Source: Actinoplanes philippinensis (GTDB lineage: Bacteria > Actinomycetota > Actinomycetes > Mycobacteriales > Micromonosporaceae). Taken from it: a stretch of DNA of 64,000 nucleotides. Numbering within the stretch: the first letter of the stretch is position 1; each line of letters opens with the position of its first letter. The position numbers and the translations under genes are program-made. Below, piece after piece: positions 2,714 to 64,000 of the stretch. The notes beneath the pieces are model-generated. The model saw only the letters and a list, made by a program, of their open reading frames with translations. It did not search any database and had not been told where the DNA came from. The stretch lies in the NCBI RefSeq assembly GCF_900113015.1, contig NZ_FONV01000027.1:1-64000 (forward strand), given 5' to 3'.

Positions 2714-4699
2714 ATGTCCACGCGTAACAGGTTGTTAAGCGCCCTCGCGGCGCTCCTGACGGCGATCCCGATCGGCGCCGCCGTCGCCACCGCACCGGCC
2801 GCCGCCGTCGGACCGGCCCTGCTTCCGGTCACCGTCACCAACACCACCGGCCGTGGCGACGCCGTCTACCTCTACGTCATCGGCGTCAACCTGACCACCG
2901 GCCGGCTCGGCTACGTGACCGGCGGCGGCGCCTTCAACGCCTGGCCGGCCGGCAACATCCCGCCGTCACCCGCCCCGGACGTGTCCATCGCCGGCCCCGG
3001 CAACGGCGGCAGCACCACCGTCCGGTTCCCGCGCAACTTCTCCGGCCGCATGTACATGTCCCTCGGCCAGCGGCTCCAGTTCTTCCTCACCCCCGACGGG
3101 CTGGTCCAGCCCGCCCCGTGGGCGTCCGGCGACCCCAACCACGACATCCTGTTCGACTGGAGCGAGTTCACCTACAACGACTCCGGGCTGTGGCTCAACA
3201 GCTCCCAGGTGGACATGTTCGCCGTACCCCACGCGGTCAGCGTCACCGGAACCGACGGCAGCCGCAGCACCGGCGCGGTGGTGGCCAACGGCCGCCAGAA
3301 CGTCATCGACCAGATCCGCGGCCAGTCCGGCTGGGCCAACACGGTCGTCACCCGCTCCGACGGCACCGTCCTGCGCGTCCTCGCGCCCGGCAAGGCCGCC
3401 GACGCCGGACTGTTCAGCAGCACCTACCTGGACTCCTACATCACCTCCGCCTGGAACGCGTACACGAGCAAGACTTTGACCGTCGTGCCGTTCGGCGACC
3501 AGCCCAACACGAAGTACTTCGGCCGCACCTCGGGCAGCACCATGGTCTTCACCAACAGCTCCGGCGCCCAGGTGGCGTCGTTCAACAAGCCGACGAGCGC
3601 GCACGTCTGGGGCTGCGACGGCAACCTGCACGCCCCCAACGACCTGGTCGTCGGCCCGATCGCCCGCACCCTCTGCGCGGCCCTCAACCGCGGCACCCTC
3701 GGCACGATCGACACCCAGCCCGGTGGTACGCCGTCCGACTTCTACAAGAGCAACCCCGCCAACCAGTACGCGCGGATCATCCACGCGAACATGGCCGACG
3801 GAAAGGCGTACGCGTTCGCCTTCGACGACGTCCAGGCCCAGGAATCGCTCGTCTACTCCAACAACCCGACGTCCGCCGGGGTCACCCTCTCGCCCTTCAC
3901 CGGAGGCGGGGGCGGTGGCGGCGGTTCCACCACGGGGTACGCCGTGACGGGCCCCGGCGGCAAGTGCGTGGACGTCGCGGGTGACGACGTCGGCGGCAAC
4001 GGGGCGGCCGTACAACTGTGGGATTGCCAGACCGCGGCCAAGGACCAGCACTGGACGCTGCGCAACGGCACCCTGCAGACTCTCGGCCGCTGCCTCGACG
4101 TGGCCGGCAACGCCACCGCCGGCGGCAGCAAGCTGCAGCTGTGGGACTGCAACGGCGTCGGCGGCCAGCAGTGGGTCACCCAGGCCGACGGCTCGATCCG
4201 CAACCCGCAGTCCGGCCGCTGCATCGACTCGCCGAACGCCAGCACCGCCAACGGCGCCCGCCTGCAACTGTGGGACTGCAACACCTCCGCGGCCCAGAAG
4301 TACGCCTACAACGGCGGCGCCACCAACCTGTCCGCCCCCGGCGGCAAATGCGTCGACGTGGCCGGCGACGACACCGGCGGCGACGGCGCGGCCGTCCAGC
4401 TCTGGGACTGCCAGCTCACCGCCCGCGACCAGCACTGGTCGTGGACCGGCCAGTCCCTGACCACCCTGGGCCGCTGCCTGGACATCGCCGGCGGCGGCAC
4501 CGCCAACGGCGCCGTCCTGCAACTGCACGACTGCACCGGAAACCCGGCCCAGACCTGGGTCCTCAACACCGACGGCAGCATCAGCAACCCGCAGTCGGGC
4601 CGCTGCATCGACTCGCCGAACGCCAGCACCGCCAACGGCGCCCGCCTGCAGATCTGGGACTGCAACAACTCCGCGGCCCAGAAGTTCGCCAAGGCCTGA
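2714..4699 (+). CDS. secreted GH64 beta-1,3-glucanase with two ricin B-type lectin modules
   Basis: A 661-residue extracellular enzyme. Residues 1-34 are a Sec signal peptide ending in APAAAVG. About 36-395 match glycoside hydrolase family 64 (laminaripentaose-producing beta-1,3-glucanase, thaumatin-like fold), with the family stretches DWSEFTYND, VVANGRQNVIDQIRG and HVWGCDGN. A Gly-rich linker leads to two tandem beta-trefoil CBM13/ricin modules (about 405-530 and 535-661), each with three QxW-type repeats (QLWDCQ, QLWDCN and similar). It should cleave fungal or algal beta-1,3-glucan outside the cell, with the lectins anchoring it to polysaccharide. The two lectin modules are nearly identical, indicating recent duplication. 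Regulated by the upstream operator. Confidence 0.9.
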   Translation: MSTRNRLLSALAALLTAIPIGAAVATAPAAAVGPALLPVTVTNTTGRGDAVYLYVIGVNLTTGRLGYVTGGGAFNAWPAGNIPPSPAPDVSIAGPGNGGSTTVRFPRNFSGRMYMSLGQRLQFFLTPDGLVQPAPWASGDPNHDILFDWSEFTYNDSGLWLNSSQVDMFAVPHAVSVTGTDGSRSTGAVVANGRQNVIDQIRGQSGWANTVVTRSDGTVLRVLAPGKAADAGLFSSTYLDSYITSAWNAYTSKTLTVVPFGDQPNTKYFGRTSGSTMVFTNSSGAQVASFNKPTSAHVWGCDGNLHAPNDLVVGPIARTLCAALNRGTLGTIDTQPGGTPSDFYKSNPANQYARIIHANMADGKAYAFAFDDVQAQESLVYSNNPTSAGVTLSPFTGGGGGGGGSTTGYAVTGPGGKCVDVAGDDVGGNGAAVQLWDCQTAAKDQHWTLRNGTLQTLGRCLDVAGNATAGGSKLQLWDCNGVGGQQWVTQADGSIRNPQSGRCIDSPNASTANGARLQLWDCNTSAAQKYAYNGGATNLSAPGGKCVDVAGDDTGGDGAAVQLWDCQLTARDQHWSWTGQSLTTLGRCLDIAGGGTANGAVLQLHDCTGNPAQTWVLNTDGSISNPQSGRCIDSPNASTANGARLQIWDCNNSAAQKFAKA

Positions 4700-29195: not shown

Positions 29196-29500
29196 GGCGG
29201 CCGGTTCCGGTTCGGTCGCATGGCGGCCGGTTCCGGTTCGGTCGCGTGGCGGCCGGTTCCGGTTCGGTGGCGCGGCGGCCGTTTCGGAGGCGTGGCGGCT
29301 GTCCGGTGACGCGGCGACGGTTTCGGGGGCGTGGCGGCCGTCCGGTGGCGCGGCGGCTGTCCGGTGGTCCGGCGACGGTTTCGGGGCGTGGCGGCCGTCC
29401 GGTGGCGTGGCGGCTGTCCGGTGGTGCGGCGACGGTTTCGGTGGCGCGGCGGCTGTCTGGTGGTGCGGCGACGGTTCGGGGCGTGGCGGCCGTGTAGGCG
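29196..29500. repeat. degenerate 18-26 bp tandem repeats (GGCGGCNGT... units)
   Basis: Fifteen consecutive units begin GGCGGCCGGTTCCGG, GGCGGCCGTCCGGTG, GGCGGCTGTCCGGTG or GGCGACGGTTTCGGG. The first three are 26 bp and the rest 18-20 bp. From the seventh unit on, they group into a higher-order period of about 57 bp. All six frames are largely open because stops are rare in such sequence; none gives a believable protein. Confidence 0.8.
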
Positions 29501-29616
29501 CTCCGAAGAGTCTTCGGAGTCGGCATCAACGGCGTCCTCTGACGCTCTGGTGCATTTGCGGTGGGCCGACGCGGCCGAGTCCACGGCATCCGGGTGCCGC
29601 AAACGATCGCCCAGCG

Positions 29617-29930
29617 GCACGCCGTGGCTGCATCCGGACGCTCGCGGTCTGGTTAGCGGCACGTGGCGGCTGCTTCCGGACGTTCGCGGTCTGGTTAGCG
29701 GCACGTGGGGGCTGCTTCCGGACGTTCGCGGTCTGGTTAGCGGCACGTGGGGGCTGCTTCCGGACGTTCGCGGTCTGGTTAGCGGCACGTGGGGGCTGCT
29801 TCCGGACGTTCGCGGTCTGGTTAGCGGCACGTGGGGGCTGCTTCCGGACGTTCGCGGTCTGGTTAGCGGCACGTGGGGGCTGCTTCCGGACGTTCGCCGT
29901 CTGGTTAGCGGCACGTGGCGGCTGCATCCG
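29617..29930. repeat. 42-bp tandem repeat, seven full copies and a partial eighth
   Basis: Units start at 29617, 29659, 29701, 29743, 29785, 29827 and 29869; the eighth stops at 29930. Each runs from GCACGTGG through GGACGTTCGCGGTCTGG to TTAGCG. Units 3 to 6 are identical; the outer ones have single changes, typical of slippage or unequal exchange. Because 42 is a multiple of three, a 14-residue repeat (PDVRGLVSGTWGLL on the plus strand) stays open in several frames, but no start, ribosome site or domain supports translation. Confidence 0.9.
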
Positions 29931-29940
29931 GGGCGTTTTG

Positions 29941-30022
29941 GCGTTCCTGGTGTGCCGCTCGGGCGATGGAAGGCTGTTGTGGCGTTCCTGATGGGCCGCT
30001 TGGGTGGCGGAAGGCCGTTGTG
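29941..30022. repeat. two imperfect 41-bp repeats
   Basis: GCGTTCCTGGTGTGCCGCTC (29941 onward) and GCGTTCCTGATGGGCCGCTT (29982 onward) begin two adjacent copies, both ending in GTTGTG. They continue the repeat tract between the hypothetical gene and the methyltransferase. Confidence 0.7.
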
Positions 30023-30180
30023 ACGCTGCTGGTGGGCGGCCGGGCTGAGGAGAGTCTCGGTGCTGCGACGGGCGATCGTTCGGCGCGCGCGAACAGCTCG
30101 GTCACAGCGCTGTGCCGGTCACTCGGCGTGCCGCTGGGAGGTCCGTACCCCCTGTCCCGAAGGTCTATAGAGTCTCCGGC

Positions 30181-31031: not shown

Positions 31032-31072
31032 GCCTCGATGCCGCTACCGCCGGTGGGTCACGTGGCGCCGAT

Positions 31073-31248
31073 CGGCAGGCGAGCGGGAACACGTTCACGA
31101 CTGGCTGGTGGGCGGGGTGGCGCAGTCATACCGGACGGAGGCGGTGGACGAGGTGCCGGCCGGCAGGCGAGCGGGAACACGTTCACGACTGGCTGGTGGG
31201 CCGGGTGGCGCAGTCATACAGGACGGAGGCGGTGGACGAGGCGCCGTA
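31073..31248. repeat. 88-bp tandem duplication of the 3-prime end of the glycosyltransferase gene
   Basis: Two copies (31073-31160 and 31161-31248) differ at only a few positions. The right-hand copy contains the last 21 codons and stop of the minus-strand glycosyltransferase gene; the left-hand copy is a spare 3-prime end, still reading SSTASV-YDCAT-PTSQS and the stop when translated. The gene itself uses the right-hand copy. Confidence 0.85.
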
Positions 31249-33270
31249 GTCGGTGGGCGGGACCTCGGCGCAATTGGCGGTGAGAAAGTCGGCCCGCTGC
31301 TGGGCGGCGCCGCTGTTCATGCCCCGGCCGCCGCCGCGTCCCGTGCCGCCGGCCGCACGGCCCAGCACGTACCGCAGCTGGCCGGTGTCGACCCAGGTCT
31401 GCAGTTGGCTCACCGACGGGGCGTTGTCCTGGCCACTGAAGCCGCCCATGCCGATGACCGTGGCGTCGCTCTCCAGGATGTAGGCGGACGCGCCCATGGC
31501 TCCGCCCTCGACGGCGAGCGCGATGCGCGTACCGCCGGAGCTCTTGATCGCGAAGTCGAGGATCGCGCGTTGCGCCTCCGTGAGGCCCTGATCGCCGCCG
31601 AAACCACCGCGACCCCCGCCGCCGTTGGGAAAAGGGCCACCACGAGAGCCGCCGAACCCACCGGGGACGCCACCGGGACCGCCGGGAGCGGCGCCGGAAG
31701 GAGCGCCACCGGGATCGCCGGAAGCGCCACCGGGATCGCCGGAAGCGGCGCCGGGGCCGGCGGGAGCGCCACCGGGATCGCCGGGAAAGGCGCCGGGACC
31801 GCCGGGGAAACCGGCGCGACCGAATGACATCACCGCAGGCCCGGCGGTCGGGTTGGCGCCACCCATCGCACTGTCCGACCAGGTCACCGACGCCGACCAG
31901 AACCCCGGAGCCAGCAGCACCGCGACCACCGCGGCCGTCACCGCGACCGGCAGCACCCGCCGCCGCAGGAACCCGACGGCAACCAGCAGCACGGCGACCA
32001 CGCCGGCCCCCACCACCGCCCACCGCAGCCATCCGTGCCACGACGGCACCCGCGCGATGACCGCGAATGCCCATCCCACGGTGCCGGCCACCGTGATCGT
32101 GACGACCGGCAGCGCCCACCGGGCCCCGGCCCGTTCGGCCCGCCACAGGGCCACGGCCAGACCGCCGCACAACGCGCCGACCGCGGGTGCGAGCTGTGAC
32201 GTGTAGTACGGGTGGAAGATCCCCTGCTGTGTGCTGAACACCGCCGCGCAGGTCAGCAGCCATCCACCCCACAGGATCCATCCGGAGCCGGGCAGTGGTT
32301 CGCCGGCCGACGTGATGCCCCGGCGATGCAGCACCGCGACGACGACCGCCACCGTCACCGCGACCGCGCAGGCCGGCAGCAGCCAGCTGATCTGCCCGGC
32401 GACCTGCTGGTTGAACAGCCGGTCCCATCCGGCCGCCCCGCCGAACGAGATCCCGCCGCCCGCGCCGCCGGAAGAGAAACCGCCGCCGGACTGCCCGAAC
32501 ACCCGGCCGAGCCCGTTGTACCCGATCACCAGGTCCCACGCGCCGCCGTCGGTGCTTCCGCCGATGTAGGGTCGTTCGCCCGGCCACACCGCGACCAGCG
32601 CCACCCACCACAACGACGACACCGCCAGCACCGCGCCCGCCACCAGCAGGCGCCACGTCCGCGTCCACCAGCCGCCGGTCGCGCCGGCCAGCCACGCCGC
32701 CGCGAACGCCGGCACCACCATCCAGGCGGCGAGCATCTTGGTGAGGAACCCTGCTCCGACGAGGAAACCGCACAGGCACAACCAGCCCACGGTGGTACGC
32801 CCGGAGCCGCCCTGCAGCGCCCGGGTCAGGGCGTAGGCGGCCGCCACCAGCAGGAGGATCAGCAGCGTGTCGGGATTGTTGTCCCGGTCGATGGCCACGG
32901 TGATCGGTGTGAGGGTGAGCACGCCCGCCGCGACGAGTCCGGCCGCGTGCCCCGCCCACCGGCGTACCACCAGGTAGAGCAGCCACACCGTGGCCACGCC
33001 GAGCACCGCCTGCGGCAGGATCATCGCCCACCCGTGCAACCCGAAGATCTTGGTGCTCAGCACCTGTGGCCACAGTGCCGCCGGTGGTTTGTCGACGGTC
33101 ACGACGCCGGCCGGGTCGTACGCTCCGAACAGGAAGTTCGTGGCGTTGAGGCCCATCGACCGGACCGCCGCCGCGTAGTAGCTGTTGCCCCAGCCGAGCG
33201 AGCCGAGGGCCCAGACGTGCAGGACGGCCGCGACCGTCAGGATGGCGGCGAGCGGCGCATGCCGTCTCAT
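31183..33270 (-). CDS. membrane glycosyltransferase, GT39/ArnT-like
   Basis: A 695-residue polytopic protein. Early GNSYYAAAVRSMGLNATNFLFGAYDPAGVVTVDKPPAALW carries the acidic/Lys-Pro-Pro features of ArnT/PMT-type enzymes that transfer sugars from polyprenyl-phosphate donors on the outer face of the membrane. About ten helices (to about residue 450) are followed by a Gly/Pro-rich collagen-like linker (repeats such as GDPGGASGDPGG, about 465-545) and an extracellular C-terminal domain with AILDFAIKSSGGTRIALAVEGG. ATG 33270 overlaps the GT2-GtrA stop by 4 nt, so the GT2 product likely supplies its lipid-linked sugar. Confidence 0.85.
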   Translation of the reverse strand: MRRHAPLAAILTVAAVLHVWALGSLGWGNSYYAAAVRSMGLNATNFLFGAYDPAGVVTVDKPPAALWPQVLSTKIFGLHGWAMILPQAVLGVATVWLLYLVVRRWAGHAAGLVAAGVLTLTPITVAIDRDNNPDTLLILLLVAAAYALTRALQGGSGRTTVGWLCLCGFLVGAGFLTKMLAAWMVVPAFAAAWLAGATGGWWTRTWRLLVAGAVLAVSSLWWVALVAVWPGERPYIGGSTDGGAWDLVIGYNGLGRVFGQSGGGFSSGGAGGGISFGGAAGWDRLFNQQVAGQISWLLPACAVAVTVAVVVAVLHRRGITSAGEPLPGSGWILWGGWLLTCAAVFSTQQGIFHPYYTSQLAPAVGALCGGLAVALWRAERAGARWALPVVTITVAGTVGWAFAVIARVPSWHGWLRWAVVGAGVVAVLLVAVGFLRRRVLPVAVTAAVVAVLLAPGFWSASVTWSDSAMGGANPTAGPAVMSFGRAGFPGGPGAFPGDPGGAPAGPGAASGDPGGASGDPGGAPSGAAPGGPGGVPGGFGGSRGGPFPNGGGGRGGFGGDQGLTEAQRAILDFAIKSSGGTRIALAVEGGAMGASAYILESDATVIGMGGFSGQDNAPSVSQLQTWVDTGQLRYVLGRAAGGTGRGGGRGMNSGAAQQRADFLTANCAEVPPTDYGASSTASVLYDCATRPTSQS

Positions 33271-59825: not shown

Positions 59826-60061
59826 GGAGGTACACCGATTCCAGTGAGAAAACCGCAGCAAAAGGAAGCGCGGCGCGGATGCGCGACGCGCTGCAGATCA
59901 GTGCTCGGGATGTCTCACAGGATGTACAACGGCATGTCCCTACCTGGACGGCTGAATCAGGCGAACGCTAACGCCCCACCGGACGCCAAGCCATCGAATA
60001 TCCGGCCCGCCGCAGGCCGTCCACCTGGCCCGCTGGTCGTCCCCGGCCCGCCGCCCCGCCG

Positions 60062-60230
60062 GGCCAGCCGTCCGCCCGGCCAGCCGTCCGCCCGGCCCGC
60101 CGTTCACCCGGCCAGCCGTCCACCCTGGCCAGCCGTCCACCCGGCCAGCCGTCCACCCGGCCAGCCGTTCACCCGGCCCGCCGTTCACCCGGCCCGCCGC
60201 CGGCCGGCCTTCCACCCGGCCGACCGTCCG
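60062..60230. repeat. 16-bp tandem repeat, about ten copies
   Basis: Units of the type GGCCAGCCGTCCACCC follow one another with small changes (CAG/CCG, TCC/TTC). No start codon context or domain suggests translation. Together with the next repeat it fills the gap from 59826 to 60471, in which I see no gene. Confidence 0.75.
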
Positions 60231-60272
60231 GGCTGGTCCGCGCGCCGCCCCGCTGCCGGGATCGTTCGTGCT

Positions 60273-60444
60273 GCTCGCTGGCGGGTTTGTCCGCGCGCCC
60301 AGCCGCTGTCGGGCTGGTTCGCGTTGCTCGCTGGCGGGTTTGTCCGCGCCCCGGGCCGCTGCCGGGTTTGTCCGCGCTGATCGCTGCCGGGCTGGTCCGC
60401 GCGCTGGGCCGCTGTCGGGCTTGTCAGCGCTGATCGCTGCCGGG
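60273..60444. repeat. 53-bp tandem repeat, three copies and a part
   Basis: Copies begin at 60273, 60326 and 60379 (GCTCGCTGGCGGG or GATCGCTGCCGGG) with a partial copy from 60432. Each contains TTTGTCCGCGC and GCCGCTGTCGGGCT-like blocks. Confidence 0.8.
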
Positions 60445-60471
60445 CGGACGGCCCCGGCAGCGAGTGGGGGA

Positions 60472-61116
60472 TCAGGTGGAAGCGCTCGGCACCGGTGCGG
60501 GGGCCGCCGGTGCGGGGGCGGCAGGTGGGACGGTGCCGGTCGATGGGGCCGGTGCGGGGGCGTTGCCGCGGTCGCGCCGATGGTCGCCGCGGCCGTTGCG
60601 ACGGTCGCCGCCGCGGGGGTTGTCGCGGTCGCCGCCGCGGCCCTCGAAACGGTCGCCTCCGGGCCTGCCGCCCCGGGCGTCGTGGTGGCCGCGGTCGTCG
60701 CCGCGGTGGCCGCCGGCGGCGAAGGCGCCGATCGTCACGCCTGCGCCGAGCAGCACGCCCAGGGCCAGGGCGCCGACCGTGGCGAGGACCGGCACGCGCC
60801 GTCGATACCAGCGGTCGTGGGCCGGGGCGGGCGTGGCCATCGCCGCAGCGGCGGCCGGTGGCGGGGGCGACGCGGGCGGTGGGTCGGCCGGTGCGGCGCC
60901 GGCGACGGCGGACACGGGTGGGGTCGCATCGGCGGTCGCGGGCGTCGCCTGAGTCGCGGGCGTCGCCGAGGTCGCGGGCGTCGCGGCAGTATCGGGCGTC
61001 GCCGGGCTCGCGGGCGTGCCCGGTGTCGCGGGTGTCGCGGCGATCTCGGCGGTCTTGTCCGGCTCGTCGGCCCGGTCGGGCTCGTCGTGCGGCGGGCGGG
61101 GCGTCAGGTCACTCAT
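60472..61116 (-). CDS. single-pass membrane protein with Ala/Thr/Pro-rich cytoplasmic repeats
   Basis: A 214-residue protein. Residues 1-95 are a low-complexity tail with repeats such as ATPATPGTPASPATPD and SATPATQATPATADATPP. A helix (residues about 104-133, RRVPVLATVGALALGVLLGAG...FAAGG) is followed by an extracellular Gly/Arg/Asp-rich part (GDRFEGRGGDRDNPRGGD) and a Pro/Ala C-terminus. No family is recognised. It follows the response regulator gene on the same strand; an RR-type direct repeat lies 90 bp before its start, so it is a probable target of the two-component system. Confidence 0.65.
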   Translation of the reverse strand: MSDLTPRPPHDEPDRADEPDKTAEIAATPATPGTPASPATPDTAATPATSATPATQATPATADATPPVSAVAGAAPADPPPASPPPPAAAAAMATPAPAHDRWYRRRVPVLATVGALALGVLLGAGVTIGAFAAGGHRGDDRGHHDARGGRPGGDRFEGRGGDRDNPRGGDRRNGRGDHRRDRGNAPAPAPSTGTVPPAAPAPAAPAPVPSAST

Positions 61117-61204
61117 CGGAATTCCTCGGTCCTTCTCACGGGGGTGGCGGGCCGGCCTCCGGTCGTCCACGTCGGGCAAGACTGGCAGACGACACCTGAA
61201 ATAA

Positions 61205-61224
61205 CGCTGAAGAAGCCGCTGAAC
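61205..61224 (-). promoter_or_regulatory. response-regulator-type direct repeat
   Basis: CGCTGAA-N5-CGCTGAAC (plus-strand reading; two CTGAA cores 12 bp apart) lies in the 127-bp gap before the membrane protein gene. A near-identical CTGA...CGCTGAAC pair occurs between the response regulator and kinase genes. Confidence 0.5.
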
Positions 61225-61243: not shown

Positions 61244-61927
61244 TCAGCCGTCGGCCGCGATCCGGTAACCCGTGCCGCGGACCGTTTCGATGGCGTTGCG
61301 GCCGAACGGGTGGTCGATCTTCTTGCGCAGGTAGCCGACGTACACCTCGACGATGTTGCGGTCCCCGGCGAAGTGCGCGTCCCACACGTTCTCGATGATC
61401 GCCGCCTTGGTGACGGCCCGGCCCCGGTTGCGCATCAGGAACTCCAGCATCGCGAACTCCCGCGGGGTGACCGGGATCGGGGTGTCACCGCGGCTGACGC
61501 TGCGCTGCGCCGGATCGAGGGTGAGGTCACCGGCGGTCAGGATCGCCGGACGCTCCGGCGCGCCCCGGCGGATCAGGGCCCGCAGGTGCGCGATCAGCAG
61601 CACGAACGAGAACGGCTTGGTCATGTAGTCGTCGGCGCCCAGGTCGAGGGCGTCGGCCTCGTCGTACTCACCGTCCTTGGCGGTGAGCATCAACACCGGC
61701 GTCCAGACCTGCCGCGATCGCAGCCGCCGGCAGATCTCGTAGCCGCTCAGGCCGGGCAGCATGATGTCGAGGACGATGGCGTCGTACGCCCCGTGCGGGT
61801 TCTCGGTGGCGATCCACAGGCCGTCGACGCCGTCGTGGGTGAGGTCGACGGTGAACCCCTCCCTGGTCAGGCCGTCGCGGATCGTCTCCGCCAGCTCCCG
61901 CTCGTCCTCGACGACGAGAATGCGCAT
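61244..61927 (-). CDS. OmpR-family response regulator
   Basis: A 227-residue regulator. The receiver has acidic EDE near the start, phospho-Asp in IVLDIMLPGLSGYE, MLTAKD and the KPF Lys. The winged-helix DNA-binding domain (residues about 130-225) shows VTPREFAMLEFLMRNRGRAVTKAAIIENVWDA and VGYLRKKIDHPFGRNAIETVRGTGYRI. Divergent from its presumed kinase, sharing a 109-bp control region. GGAGGTACGCCCG before ATG is the ribosome site. Confidence 0.9.
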   Translation of the reverse strand: MRILVVEDERELAETIRDGLTREGFTVDLTHDGVDGLWIATENPHGAYDAIVLDIMLPGLSGYEICRRLRSRQVWTPVLMLTAKDGEYDEADALDLGADDYMTKPFSFVLLIAHLRALIRRGAPERPAILTAGDLTLDPAQRSVSRGDTPIPVTPREFAMLEFLMRNRGRAVTKAAIIENVWDAHFAGDRNIVEVYVGYLRKKIDHPFGRNAIETVRGTGYRIAADG

Positions 61928-61970
61928 CGGGCGTACCTCCTGGTCTGTCGTCTCCAAGATTGCCCACCCG

Positions 61971-62029
61971 CAACTGAGAATCCGCTGAACCGCGTTTTCA
62001 GCGTCCCTTCAGGCGCCGGTGGTTAGCGT
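61971..62029. promoter_or_regulatory. shared control region of the two-component system
   Basis: CAACTGA-N5-CGCTGAAC (61971-61990) resembles the box before the neighbouring membrane protein gene. CGCTGAA-N7-TTCAGCG (61983-62003) is an inverted repeat. TAGCGT (62024-62029) is 7 nt before the kinase ATG. The layout suggests autoregulation in both directions. Confidence 0.5.
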
Positions 62030-62036
62030 TGCGGCC

Positions 62037-63698
62037 ATGCGCATGCGTGCCGTGTTGCGGCTCCCGCCACGCAGGCTCGGCGTCCGCCTGCGATCCGCCA
62101 TCGCCGCCGCCCTGGTGGTGGCGGTGGCCGCCGTGCTCGCCGGGGCACTGCTGCTGGGCACCGCACGCGGTCTGCTGCTCGACAGCGTGGCCACGACCGC
62201 GACCGACCGTGCCAACCAGGTGACCGCCGCGCTGCGGTCCGGTGACGCGGCGGCGCTGGCCGCGGCCATGACCCCGGCCGAGCCGGGCCGCACGATGGTG
62301 CAGGTCCTCGACGCGAGCGGCCGGGTGGTCCGGGCGTCACCCGCGTTCACCGCCGACCGCCCGTCACCCGCGTCCGGTGCCGGCCGAAACCCGCCCGGGT
62401 CTGGCGGTGACGGGGAGTTGCCCGCTTCCGGTGCCGGTCGTAACCCGCCTGGGTCTGGCGGTGACGGGGAGTTGCCCGCGTCTCGTGCCGGCCGTAACCC
62501 ACCCGCGTCTGATGGCGACCGTGAGCTGCCCGCGTCTGGCGGCGACCGCAACCCAGCCGCGCCCGGTGGTGACCGTGAGTTGCCGGCCGCCGATCGGCAG
62601 CCCGCTGTGTTCGTCGCCGATCGGCCGCTGTCGGCGCTGCGTCCGGCGGTGGGCCGCACCGCCTGGGAGAGCCGCCGGCTGCGCGGCGGGCGGCACGGGC
62701 AGTTCCGGGTGCTGGCCGCCGCGGTGCAGACGCCCGCCGGCGTGCGGACGGTGCTGGTCGCGGAGTCGATGGAGACCGTCGACGAGGCCACCCGGGCGAT
62801 CGTCGCGGCACTGCTCGCCGGGATGCCGCTGCTGGCCCTGGTGGTCGGGGTGGCGACGTTCGTGTTCGTCGGGCGCACGCTGCGGCCGGTCGAGGCGATG
62901 ACGCACCGGGCCGCCACGATCACCGCCACCAACCTGCACGCCCGGCTGCCGGTGCCCGGTTCCGGCGACGAGATAGCCGCGCTGGCCGCCACCATGAACA
63001 CGATGCTCGACCGCATCGAGGTCGCCTCGGCGGCGCAGCGCCGGTTCGTCGCCGATGCCAGCCACGAGCTGCGCAGCCCGCTGGCGACCATCCACGCCAA
63101 CGCGGATCTGCTCCGCGCCGCCGACCTGGAGGAGTCCGCCGGCCGATCGGTGACCCGCATCCACCGGGAGAGCACCCGCCTGGCCCGGCTGGTCGACGAC
63201 CTGCTGCTCCTCGCCCGGGTCGACGACGCCGCGCTGCGACCACGCCGGGCCGAGGTCGACCTCGACGACCTGGTCTACGCCGCCCGCGAGCGGGTCGCGG
63301 TGGAACGCCCCGCTCTGCGCCTGGACGGCGACGTCGTCCCGGTCCGTGTGATCGGCGACGCCGACCAGCTCCACCGGGCGCTGCGCAACCTGGTCGACAA
63401 CGCGATGCGCCACGCCCGCGACCGGATCACCATCACCCTCGGCCGCTCCGCCGACCAGGCGGAGATCGTCGTCGGCAACGACGGCCCAGAGATCCTCCCA
63501 CCGGACCGCGAGCGGATCTTCGACCGTTTCGTACGGCTCGACGACAGCCGAGCCCGCCAGGACGGCGGCACCGGCCTGGGCCTGTCCATCGCCCGCGAGA
63601 TCGCAACCCTGCACGACGGCACCCTGACCGTCGACGACCTTCCCGAAGGGGCGGTTTTCCGCTTGCGGTTGCCGGCCACCGACCCGGGCGTGGGCTGA
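62037..63698 (+). CDS. sensor histidine kinase with repeat-expanded sensor domain
   Basis: A 553-residue kinase: helix 1 (about 22-45), extracellular sensor (about 46-255), helix 2 (about 260-285), HAMP (VGRTLRPVEAMTHRAATI to DEIAALAATMNTML), HisKA with RRFVADASHELRSPLATI (phospho-His), and HATPase (LRNLVDNAMRHA, GNDGPEI, GGTGLGLSIAREI). The sensor contains four 18-residue tandem repeats (PASGAGRNPPGSGGDGEL type) encoded by 54-bp units, apparently inserted in an ordinary sensor. The leaderless TAGCGT supports ATG 62037 rather than the upstream GTG 62019. Confidence 0.9.
   Translation: MRMRAVLRLPPRRLGVRLRSAIAAALVVAVAAVLAGALLLGTARGLLLDSVATTATDRANQVTAALRSGDAAALAAAMTPAEPGRTMVQVLDASGRVVRASPAFTADRPSPASGAGRNPPGSGGDGELPASGAGRNPPGSGGDGELPASRAGRNPPASDGDRELPASGGDRNPAAPGGDRELPAADRQPAVFVADRPLSALRPAVGRTAWESRRLRGGRHGQFRVLAAAVQTPAGVRTVLVAESMETVDEATRAIVAALLAGMPLLALVVGVATFVFVGRTLRPVEAMTHRAATITATNLHARLPVPGSGDEIAALAATMNTMLDRIEVASAAQRRFVADASHELRSPLATIHANADLLRAADLEESAGRSVTRIHRESTRLARLVDDLLLLARVDDAALRPRRAEVDLDDLVYAARERVAVERPALRLDGDVVPVRVIGDADQLHRALRNLVDNAMRHARDRITITLGRSADQAEIVVGNDGPEILPPDRERIFDRFVRLDDSRARQDGGTGLGLSIAREIATLHDGTLTVDDLPEGAVFRLRLPATDPGVG
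62367..62582 (+). repeat. four 54-bp tandem repeats inside the kinase gene
   Basis: Units start at 62367, 62421, 62475 and 62529. Units 1 and 2 encode identical 18-residue blocks, 3 and 4 are diverged. The period keeps the frame, so copy number changes would lengthen or shorten the extracellular sensor without breaking the kinase. Confidence 0.9.
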
Positions 63699-63822
63699 TC
63701 GAAGGGCGACGCGGTCCGGCGACACCCCGATCAGCGGCCGGACACGGATCCGGGGGACCACTTCGATCAATGCGGGTCGTCCACATGCGGCGCCGCCGGG
63801 CGGATGCCTTAGGGTCGGCCCC

Positions 63823-64000
63823 GTGATGTCAGACCGAGCGGGCCGGATCATCCTGCTCAACGGGGCCTCCAGCGCAGGCAAGAGCAGCATCGGCCGGGCG
63901 ATGCTTCCGCTGCTGTCGGACCCGTGGTTCTTCATGCCGGTGGACGCGATCAACGCCATGCGTTCCACCCTGCACACCAGGGTGCTGGACGACACGGAGA
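63823..64000 (+). CDS. chloramphenicol phosphotransferase-like protein (partial)
   Basis: The gene runs off the window. The 59 visible residues show IILLNGASSAGKSSIGRAMLP, a Walker A of the chloramphenicol phosphotransferase-like family (NGxSSxGKS), and the following LLSDPWFFMPVDAINAM, where CPT carries its substrate Asp. The family phosphorylates chloramphenicol or related small molecules. TAGGGT lies 7 nt before GTG 63823; ATG 63826 is an alternative. Confidence 0.75.
   Translation, partial: MMSDRAGRIILLNGASSAGKSSIGRAMLPLLSDPWFFMPVDAINAMRSTLHTRVLDDTE

Follow-up and report, generated by a model that had tools for sequence, protein, structure and literature searches.

A sensor histidine kinase of Actinoplanes philippinensis carries four tandem 54-bp units within its sensor, and the reading that we hold to be probable is that this is an ordinary kinase in which in-frame tandem duplication lengthened the loop joining strands beta2 and beta3 of the sensor, the product being tolerated as a disordered segment that at most modulates the sensor. 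The source genome is a 10.4-Mb draft of 58 contigs with ~72% GC, and coordinates refer to the 64,000-nucleotide stretch of it that was analysed, here called the window. The kinase and the elements of its repeat region are the following.

62037 to 63698, plus strand: sensor histidine kinase of 553 residues (Pfam domains, AlphaFold2 model).
62367 to 62582, plus strand, residues 111-182: four tandem 54-bp units, each made of two 27-bp half-units (Tandem Repeats Finder; translations and identities of the units).
About 62358 to 62621, plus strand, residues 108-195: insertion that holds the array, 264 bp and 88 residues long (alignment with the nearest relative, genome G059).
62346 to 62363, plus strand: left copy of a duplicated segment encoding FxADRP (by eye, 14 of 18 bases identical to 62610-62627).
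62610 to 62627, plus strand: right copy of the same segment (DNA match and alignment with G059).

By Pfam and an AlphaFold2 model, the kinase runs from a membrane helix through an extracytoplasmic sensor to a second membrane helix, and then to HAMP (residues 277-328), HisKA (333-396) and HATPase_c (440-548) domains. All three domains score above their curated cut-offs (48 bits against 25, 61.9 against 26.9 and 92.2 against 26.4, respectively), and the protein is a class I membrane histidine kinase with HAMP. Hydrophobic stretches were recognised by eye in the sequence at approximately residues 17-45 and 250-280, and the membrane-spanning helices of the model occupy residues 14-68 and 246-298; from the positive-inside rule we infer that the sensor side is extracytoplasmic. 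No NCBIfam cut-off was reached by the kinase among the best 25 of 71 matched models, and the best match, the CzcS/SilS/CopS heavy-metal kinase family (TIGR01386), was rejected at 211.8 bits against a cut-off of 292.55. An open frame of 543 codons on the minus strand (62364-63995) runs across the repeat array; shadow frames are usual opposite high-GC coding DNA, and this one is taken as a putative shadow frame and not as an antisense gene.

Tandem Repeats Finder describes the array as 62367-62584, with a period of 54, 4.0 copies, 82% matches and a score of 247, and detects a weaker 27-bp period (58% matches) beneath it. Read in frame from the ATG at 62037, the four units translate as PASGAGRNPPGSGGDGEL, PASGAGRNPPGSGGDGEL, PASRAGRNPPASDGDREL and PASGGDRNPAAPGGDREL. 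The only differences between copies 1 and 2 are 4 silent ones in 54 bases, while copies 3 and 4 have diverged, retaining 38-43 of 54 bases in common with the other copies. Half-units that share parity mostly resemble each other more than halves of opposite parity do, a likeness which suggests that the 27-bp copies arose before the 54-bp copies. Chance origin is excluded, since no array with a score of at least 100 arose when 400 kb of the genome were resampled with a first-order Markov model. A search of the array DNA against its own genome found only the array itself, and with no second copy found a dispersed element was rejected. The period of 54 is divisible by three and the frame is open, as in an in-frame intragenic tandem array; an on/off phase-variable contingency locus was rejected, as the array lies within the coding part and, 54 being a multiple of three, on/off switching is not expected. 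The original prediction of four 54-bp units at 62367-62582, in the reading frame of a histidine kinase, is confirmed by Tandem Repeats Finder and the unit translations, and its placement of them outside the cytoplasm is supported by sequence and model, which put them between both membrane helices. Its interval is right for the array itself, but the insertion that holds the array is wider.

The origin of this insertion is best seen against G059, the nearest relative found in a kinase DNA search that covered 67 genomes of the genus, which has 82-83% DNA identity in the matching parts and carries no array. At one place in G059 two BLAST pieces of the kinase gene overlap by 30 bases, and both FTADRP, before the insertion, and FVADRP, after it, correspond to a single FAADRP; these duplicated ends also make the exact placement of the insertion ambiguous. 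The array is absent from 25 of 25 aligned relatives (in alignment A3, 21 genomes of the genus contribute 23 sequences, and Micromonospora and Rhodococcoides one each). Because the single G059 segment matches both ends and the other relatives are without the array, the comparison points to tandem duplication in this lineage, which fits better than loss in G059. The ortholog set is counted without L001, L003 and L004, which duplicate L079, L092 and L096; L102 (genome G022) gave no protein match, and loci L006-L027 match from about residue 194 or later, so that their sensors fall outside the comparison, as do the DNA match in G049 and those ranked second or third in G003, G064 and G070. The kinase of A. 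italicus (L001/L079) has a different insertion of its own, of 15 residues, slightly further on, and by eye this seems to be internally duplicated.

We considered whether the 54-bp unit descends from the native loop, for which the case at the DNA level is weak. Against a doubled unit consensus the G059 loop scores 14, a value reached by 10 of 441 overlapping gene segments (which include the loop itself) and by 15 of 300 codon shuffles; the left flank of the array scores 12, reached by 17 of 421 segments and 2 of 300 shuffles, and the right flank scores 8, which is under the average. With such weak scores, our claim about ancestry is limited to the duplicated FxADRP ends.

In the AlphaFold2 model of the full-length kinase (15 sequences; mean pLDDT 78.5, pTM 0.49) a long helix leaves the membrane and leads, through a short helix and two strands, into the loop; three strands then connect the loop to the second membrane helix, and the insertion sits in the beta2-beta3 loop of what resembles a PAS/PDC sensor. 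Residues 107-157 and 159-191 have pLDDT below 50 and no secondary structure, the blocks over residues 111-190 lying at 37-41; in the sensor core, by comparison, most ten-residue blocks reach 89-96 and two are at 78-79. The 88-residue addition is thus predicted to form a disordered loop rich in Pro, Gly, Asp and Arg, which leaves the sensor core intact and lies off the helix-to-helix path. The earlier statement that the repeats lengthen the sensor therefore holds in so far as length is added without a frameshift; the folded sensor is not lengthened, the addition falling in a loop that is predicted to be disordered.

The fold itself was compared by way of a repeat-less Micromonospora homologue (L002), whose modelled ectodomain (six sequences, mean pLDDT 83.4) has the same order, helix-helix-b1-b2-loop-b3-b4-b5, with an ordinary loop. 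This model aligns with the WalK ectodomain 4ywz_B (VIA Z 11.1, rmsd 3.1 over 127 residues), with CusS (VIA Z 9.7, rmsd 3.2 over 119 residues) and with PhoQ (Z 8.5), at sequence identities of ~5-11% in the structural alignments. Foldseek gives it a TM score of 0.62 but an E-value of 0.008 to 4ywz_A, with one match below 0.001, to a WalK model, and a sequence profile searched against the PDB found no convincing relative, its two matches up to an E-value of 1 (the best at 0.025) being unrelated proteins. Judged through this homologue and not through the window protein alone, the modelled sensor shares the PAS/PDC (sCache-like) fold; given the weak Foldseek E-values, a profile without a solved relative and identity of ~10%, the likeness indicates the fold and not the ligand. 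The loop would hang from the sensor beside the region where PAS and Cache sensors form their pocket. Staphylococcus WalK and E. coli CusS and PhoQ likewise have two membrane helices, a small mixed sensor, HAMP, HisKA and HATPase_c, and the window kinase differs from them by its repeat loop of 88 residues.

A purely neutral reading is opposed above all by the pattern of substitution, in that the copies differ little in amino acids. Compared pairwise, they have pN/pS values of 0 to 0.48; the corresponding values against G059 are 0.65 and 0.70 in the two flanking parts of the sensor and 0.23 in the remaining protein. That all differences between copies 1 and 2 are silent has a probability of ~0.01 under random change. 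Of 21 minimum changes, 12 fall at third positions (binomial P 0.02), or 11 of 20 when variable sites are counted (P 0.04), and the observed third-position share is attained by 25 of 4698 neutral simulations. With these small numbers, the repeat peptide may be under constraint, perhaps only on its composition. Since silent divergence between copies (pS 0.25-0.65, ~15 sites) is similar to that between species (0.26-0.34), the array is probably not very young.

Arrays of this kind are common in these genomes. Counting those with a score of at least 100, samples of 400 kb yield 34 in this genome and 25 in G059, and 360 kb of a second congener, G061, yield 33; two genomes from the same order but different families, sampled over 200 kb apiece, yield 7 and 1. 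The sampled stretches are non-random, and two stretches of G064 stand outside the counts. In frames judged coding-like by a codon-position test there are 10 in the 400 kb, in addition to the one in the window, 8 in G059 and 8 in G061, and 27 of 27 such periods are divisible by three, a result biased by the requirement that the frame stay open for counting; for the other arrays the fractions are 19/32, 9/17 and 18/25. A proportional estimate gives ~260 intragenic arrays in this genome, a rough figure, as the stretches were non-random. At the locus itself, five arrays with a score of at least 70 occur in the last 4 kb of the window, none in a 7-kb locus of G059, and two weak ones (scores 89 and 88) in a 5.5-kb locus of A. 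italicus. Elsewhere in the window, tandem-array clusters lie at 29196-30045 and 31060-31822, and include a 42-bp unit with 7.6 copies and 96% matches, and a 384-bp unit with 1.9 copies lies at 3952-4690, which seems to code for a ricin B-like lectin repeat.

Of 81 HAMP matches, 30 loci were examined with ~1.5 kb on each side, two of the 30 belonging to one multi-HAMP gene. Apart from that of the window kinase, no strong array precedes HAMP in these loci; two weak arrays, one with a period of 15 and a score of 71, the other with a period of 33 and a score of 84, occur in open frames ahead of the domain. Sensors, to go by these 30 loci, seem not to collect arrays freely. The multi-HAMP gene (G000:C47:620745-622811; L187 and L192) lies in a frame of 1536 codons and has tandem HAMP domains with a DNA period of 276 bp.

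The setting of the kinase gene appears to be that of a conventional two-component system, as indicated by four further features.

61244 to 61927, minus strand: partner response regulator of the OmpR family, divergent from the kinase (Pfam Response_reg and Trans_reg_C); its start, the ATG at 61927, was chosen within the open reading frame 61244-61957.
60472 to 61116, minus strand: gene 3, 214 residues, a probable target of the regulator (homologues in G059 and A. italicus).
61997 to 62012, minus strand: CTGAA-N6-CTGAA direct repeat in the interval between kinase and regulator, a putative regulator box (genome motif count).
61196 to 61211, plus strand: CTGAA-N6-CTGAA direct repeat before gene 3, also a putative regulator box (genome motif count).

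The direct repeat has 11 matches in the whole genome, two of them at the kinase locus, and the backwards control has three; both boxes occur at matching places in G059 and A. italicus. By manual count, a pair of CTGAA or TTCAG with such spacing is found upstream of the kinase at 15 of 25 loci, the other 10 having none or a degenerate one. Gene 3 encodes a protein with one hydrophobic segment, a Pro/Ala-rich N-terminal arm and a tail rich in Arg, Asp, Gly and His; it matches no Pfam family at an E-value of 0.001 or 5 and no NCBIfam model at 0.001. Its N-terminal arm carries an in-frame array of its own (Tandem Repeats Finder, 60939-61041), and its 214 residues compare with 140 in G059 and 186 in A. 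italicus; of the 74 residues by which it exceeds the G059 protein, ~50 lie in the N-terminal arm, largely as ATPATP-like repeats. Downstream of gene 3, at 60042-60445, there are two adjoining tandem arrays with units of 16/65 bp and 53 bp. The arrangement is likely to be an autoregulated two-component circuit with gene 3 as a target, in which the regulator would bind the two boxes.

The original prediction saw in the repeats a possible device for tuning sensor length, variable by phase or between strains; on such a reading, gain or loss of units by recombination would shift the set point of the sensor in the manner of TolA. The array is in frame and in the sensor, and its exact repeat of 29 bp, the longest within 62301-62650, would be usable for recombination. 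There is also a precedent, in that the number of repeats in E. coli tolA alters stress tolerance (PMC3477136). In the same study, contractions of tolA are RecA dependent and can occur at 6.9x10^-5, and although each unit has its own sequence, the non-identical units still contract (PMC3477136). Variation in unit number is therefore possible for the kinase array too, given that non-identical tolA units contract and that their number changes function. The two genes have in common tandem units that change protein length without a frameshift, but in tolA copy number varies among strains with measured effects (PMC3477136), whereas the kinase array is the sequence of one genome. No variant is known for this species, which is represented by one genome; the loop is predicted to be disordered and off the helix-to-helix path, and the divergence of copies 3 and 4 (38-43 of 54 bases identical) gives no evidence of frequent homogenising turnover. 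Since the genome holds many such arrays, this one can be explained without a device dedicated to length tuning, which we consider unlikely.

A second explanation has the loop selected as a flexible arm whose binding partner would be envelope material or the extracytoplasmic tail of gene 3, with feedback on the kinase as the result. The low amino-acid change between copies would agree with such a function; gene 3 is probably under the same regulator, and its tail is, like the array, rich in Gly, Asp and Arg. However, in G059 and A. italicus gene 3 is present, with GGDR in the tail of its product, alongside a kinase without the array, and common composition is weak evidence in a genome of ~72% GC; this proposal, too, is improbable. 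A combination of the two, in which a repeat-built disordered loop was selected as an adjustable extracytoplasmic arm, with gain or loss of units changing the set point or the binding of the gene 3 tail, we regard as doubtful. An artefact of assembly or sequencing might be suspected in a draft of 58 contigs, but is very improbable, since the copies differ, the reading frame is open throughout the array and the longest exact repeat, at only 29 bp, makes a collapsed assembly unlikely.

Searches of open-licence papers for tandem repeats in histidine kinases or sensors returned no title or abstract opening that deals with repeats in the sensor domain of a kinase. Tandem-repeat variation is also a feature of the senX3-regX3 two-component locus of Mycobacterium tuberculosis, where the repeat lies between the genes; the kinase array is likewise a tandem repeat in a two-component locus, but is inside the sensor. 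A term search of PMC2639597 returned no histidine kinase or sensor.

Returning to expansion of a tolerated loop as the preferred explanation, we propose that replication slippage or recombination, as part of a genus-wide habit of tandem duplication, would have produced first the 27-bp and then the 54-bp units. The loop would have been retained owing to its permissive surface position, with weak purifying selection perhaps maintaining its composition. It could mildly alter the access of a ligand or partner protein to the sensor, and might shield it or recruit partners, although its effect is most likely small. The signalling logic, from sensor through HAMP and kinase to a regulator that probably acts on its own promoter region and on gene 3, would be as in repeat-less relatives.

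The array shows a sensor domain gaining a long disordered loop, a case in which the units, the duplicated ends and the state without repeats can all still be made out. The high-GC genomes considered here often make in-frame tandem arrays, and in this case one has been tolerated in a sensor loop. If the loop does tune signalling, it would offer a natural length series for testing the effects of loops in PAS/PDC sensors.
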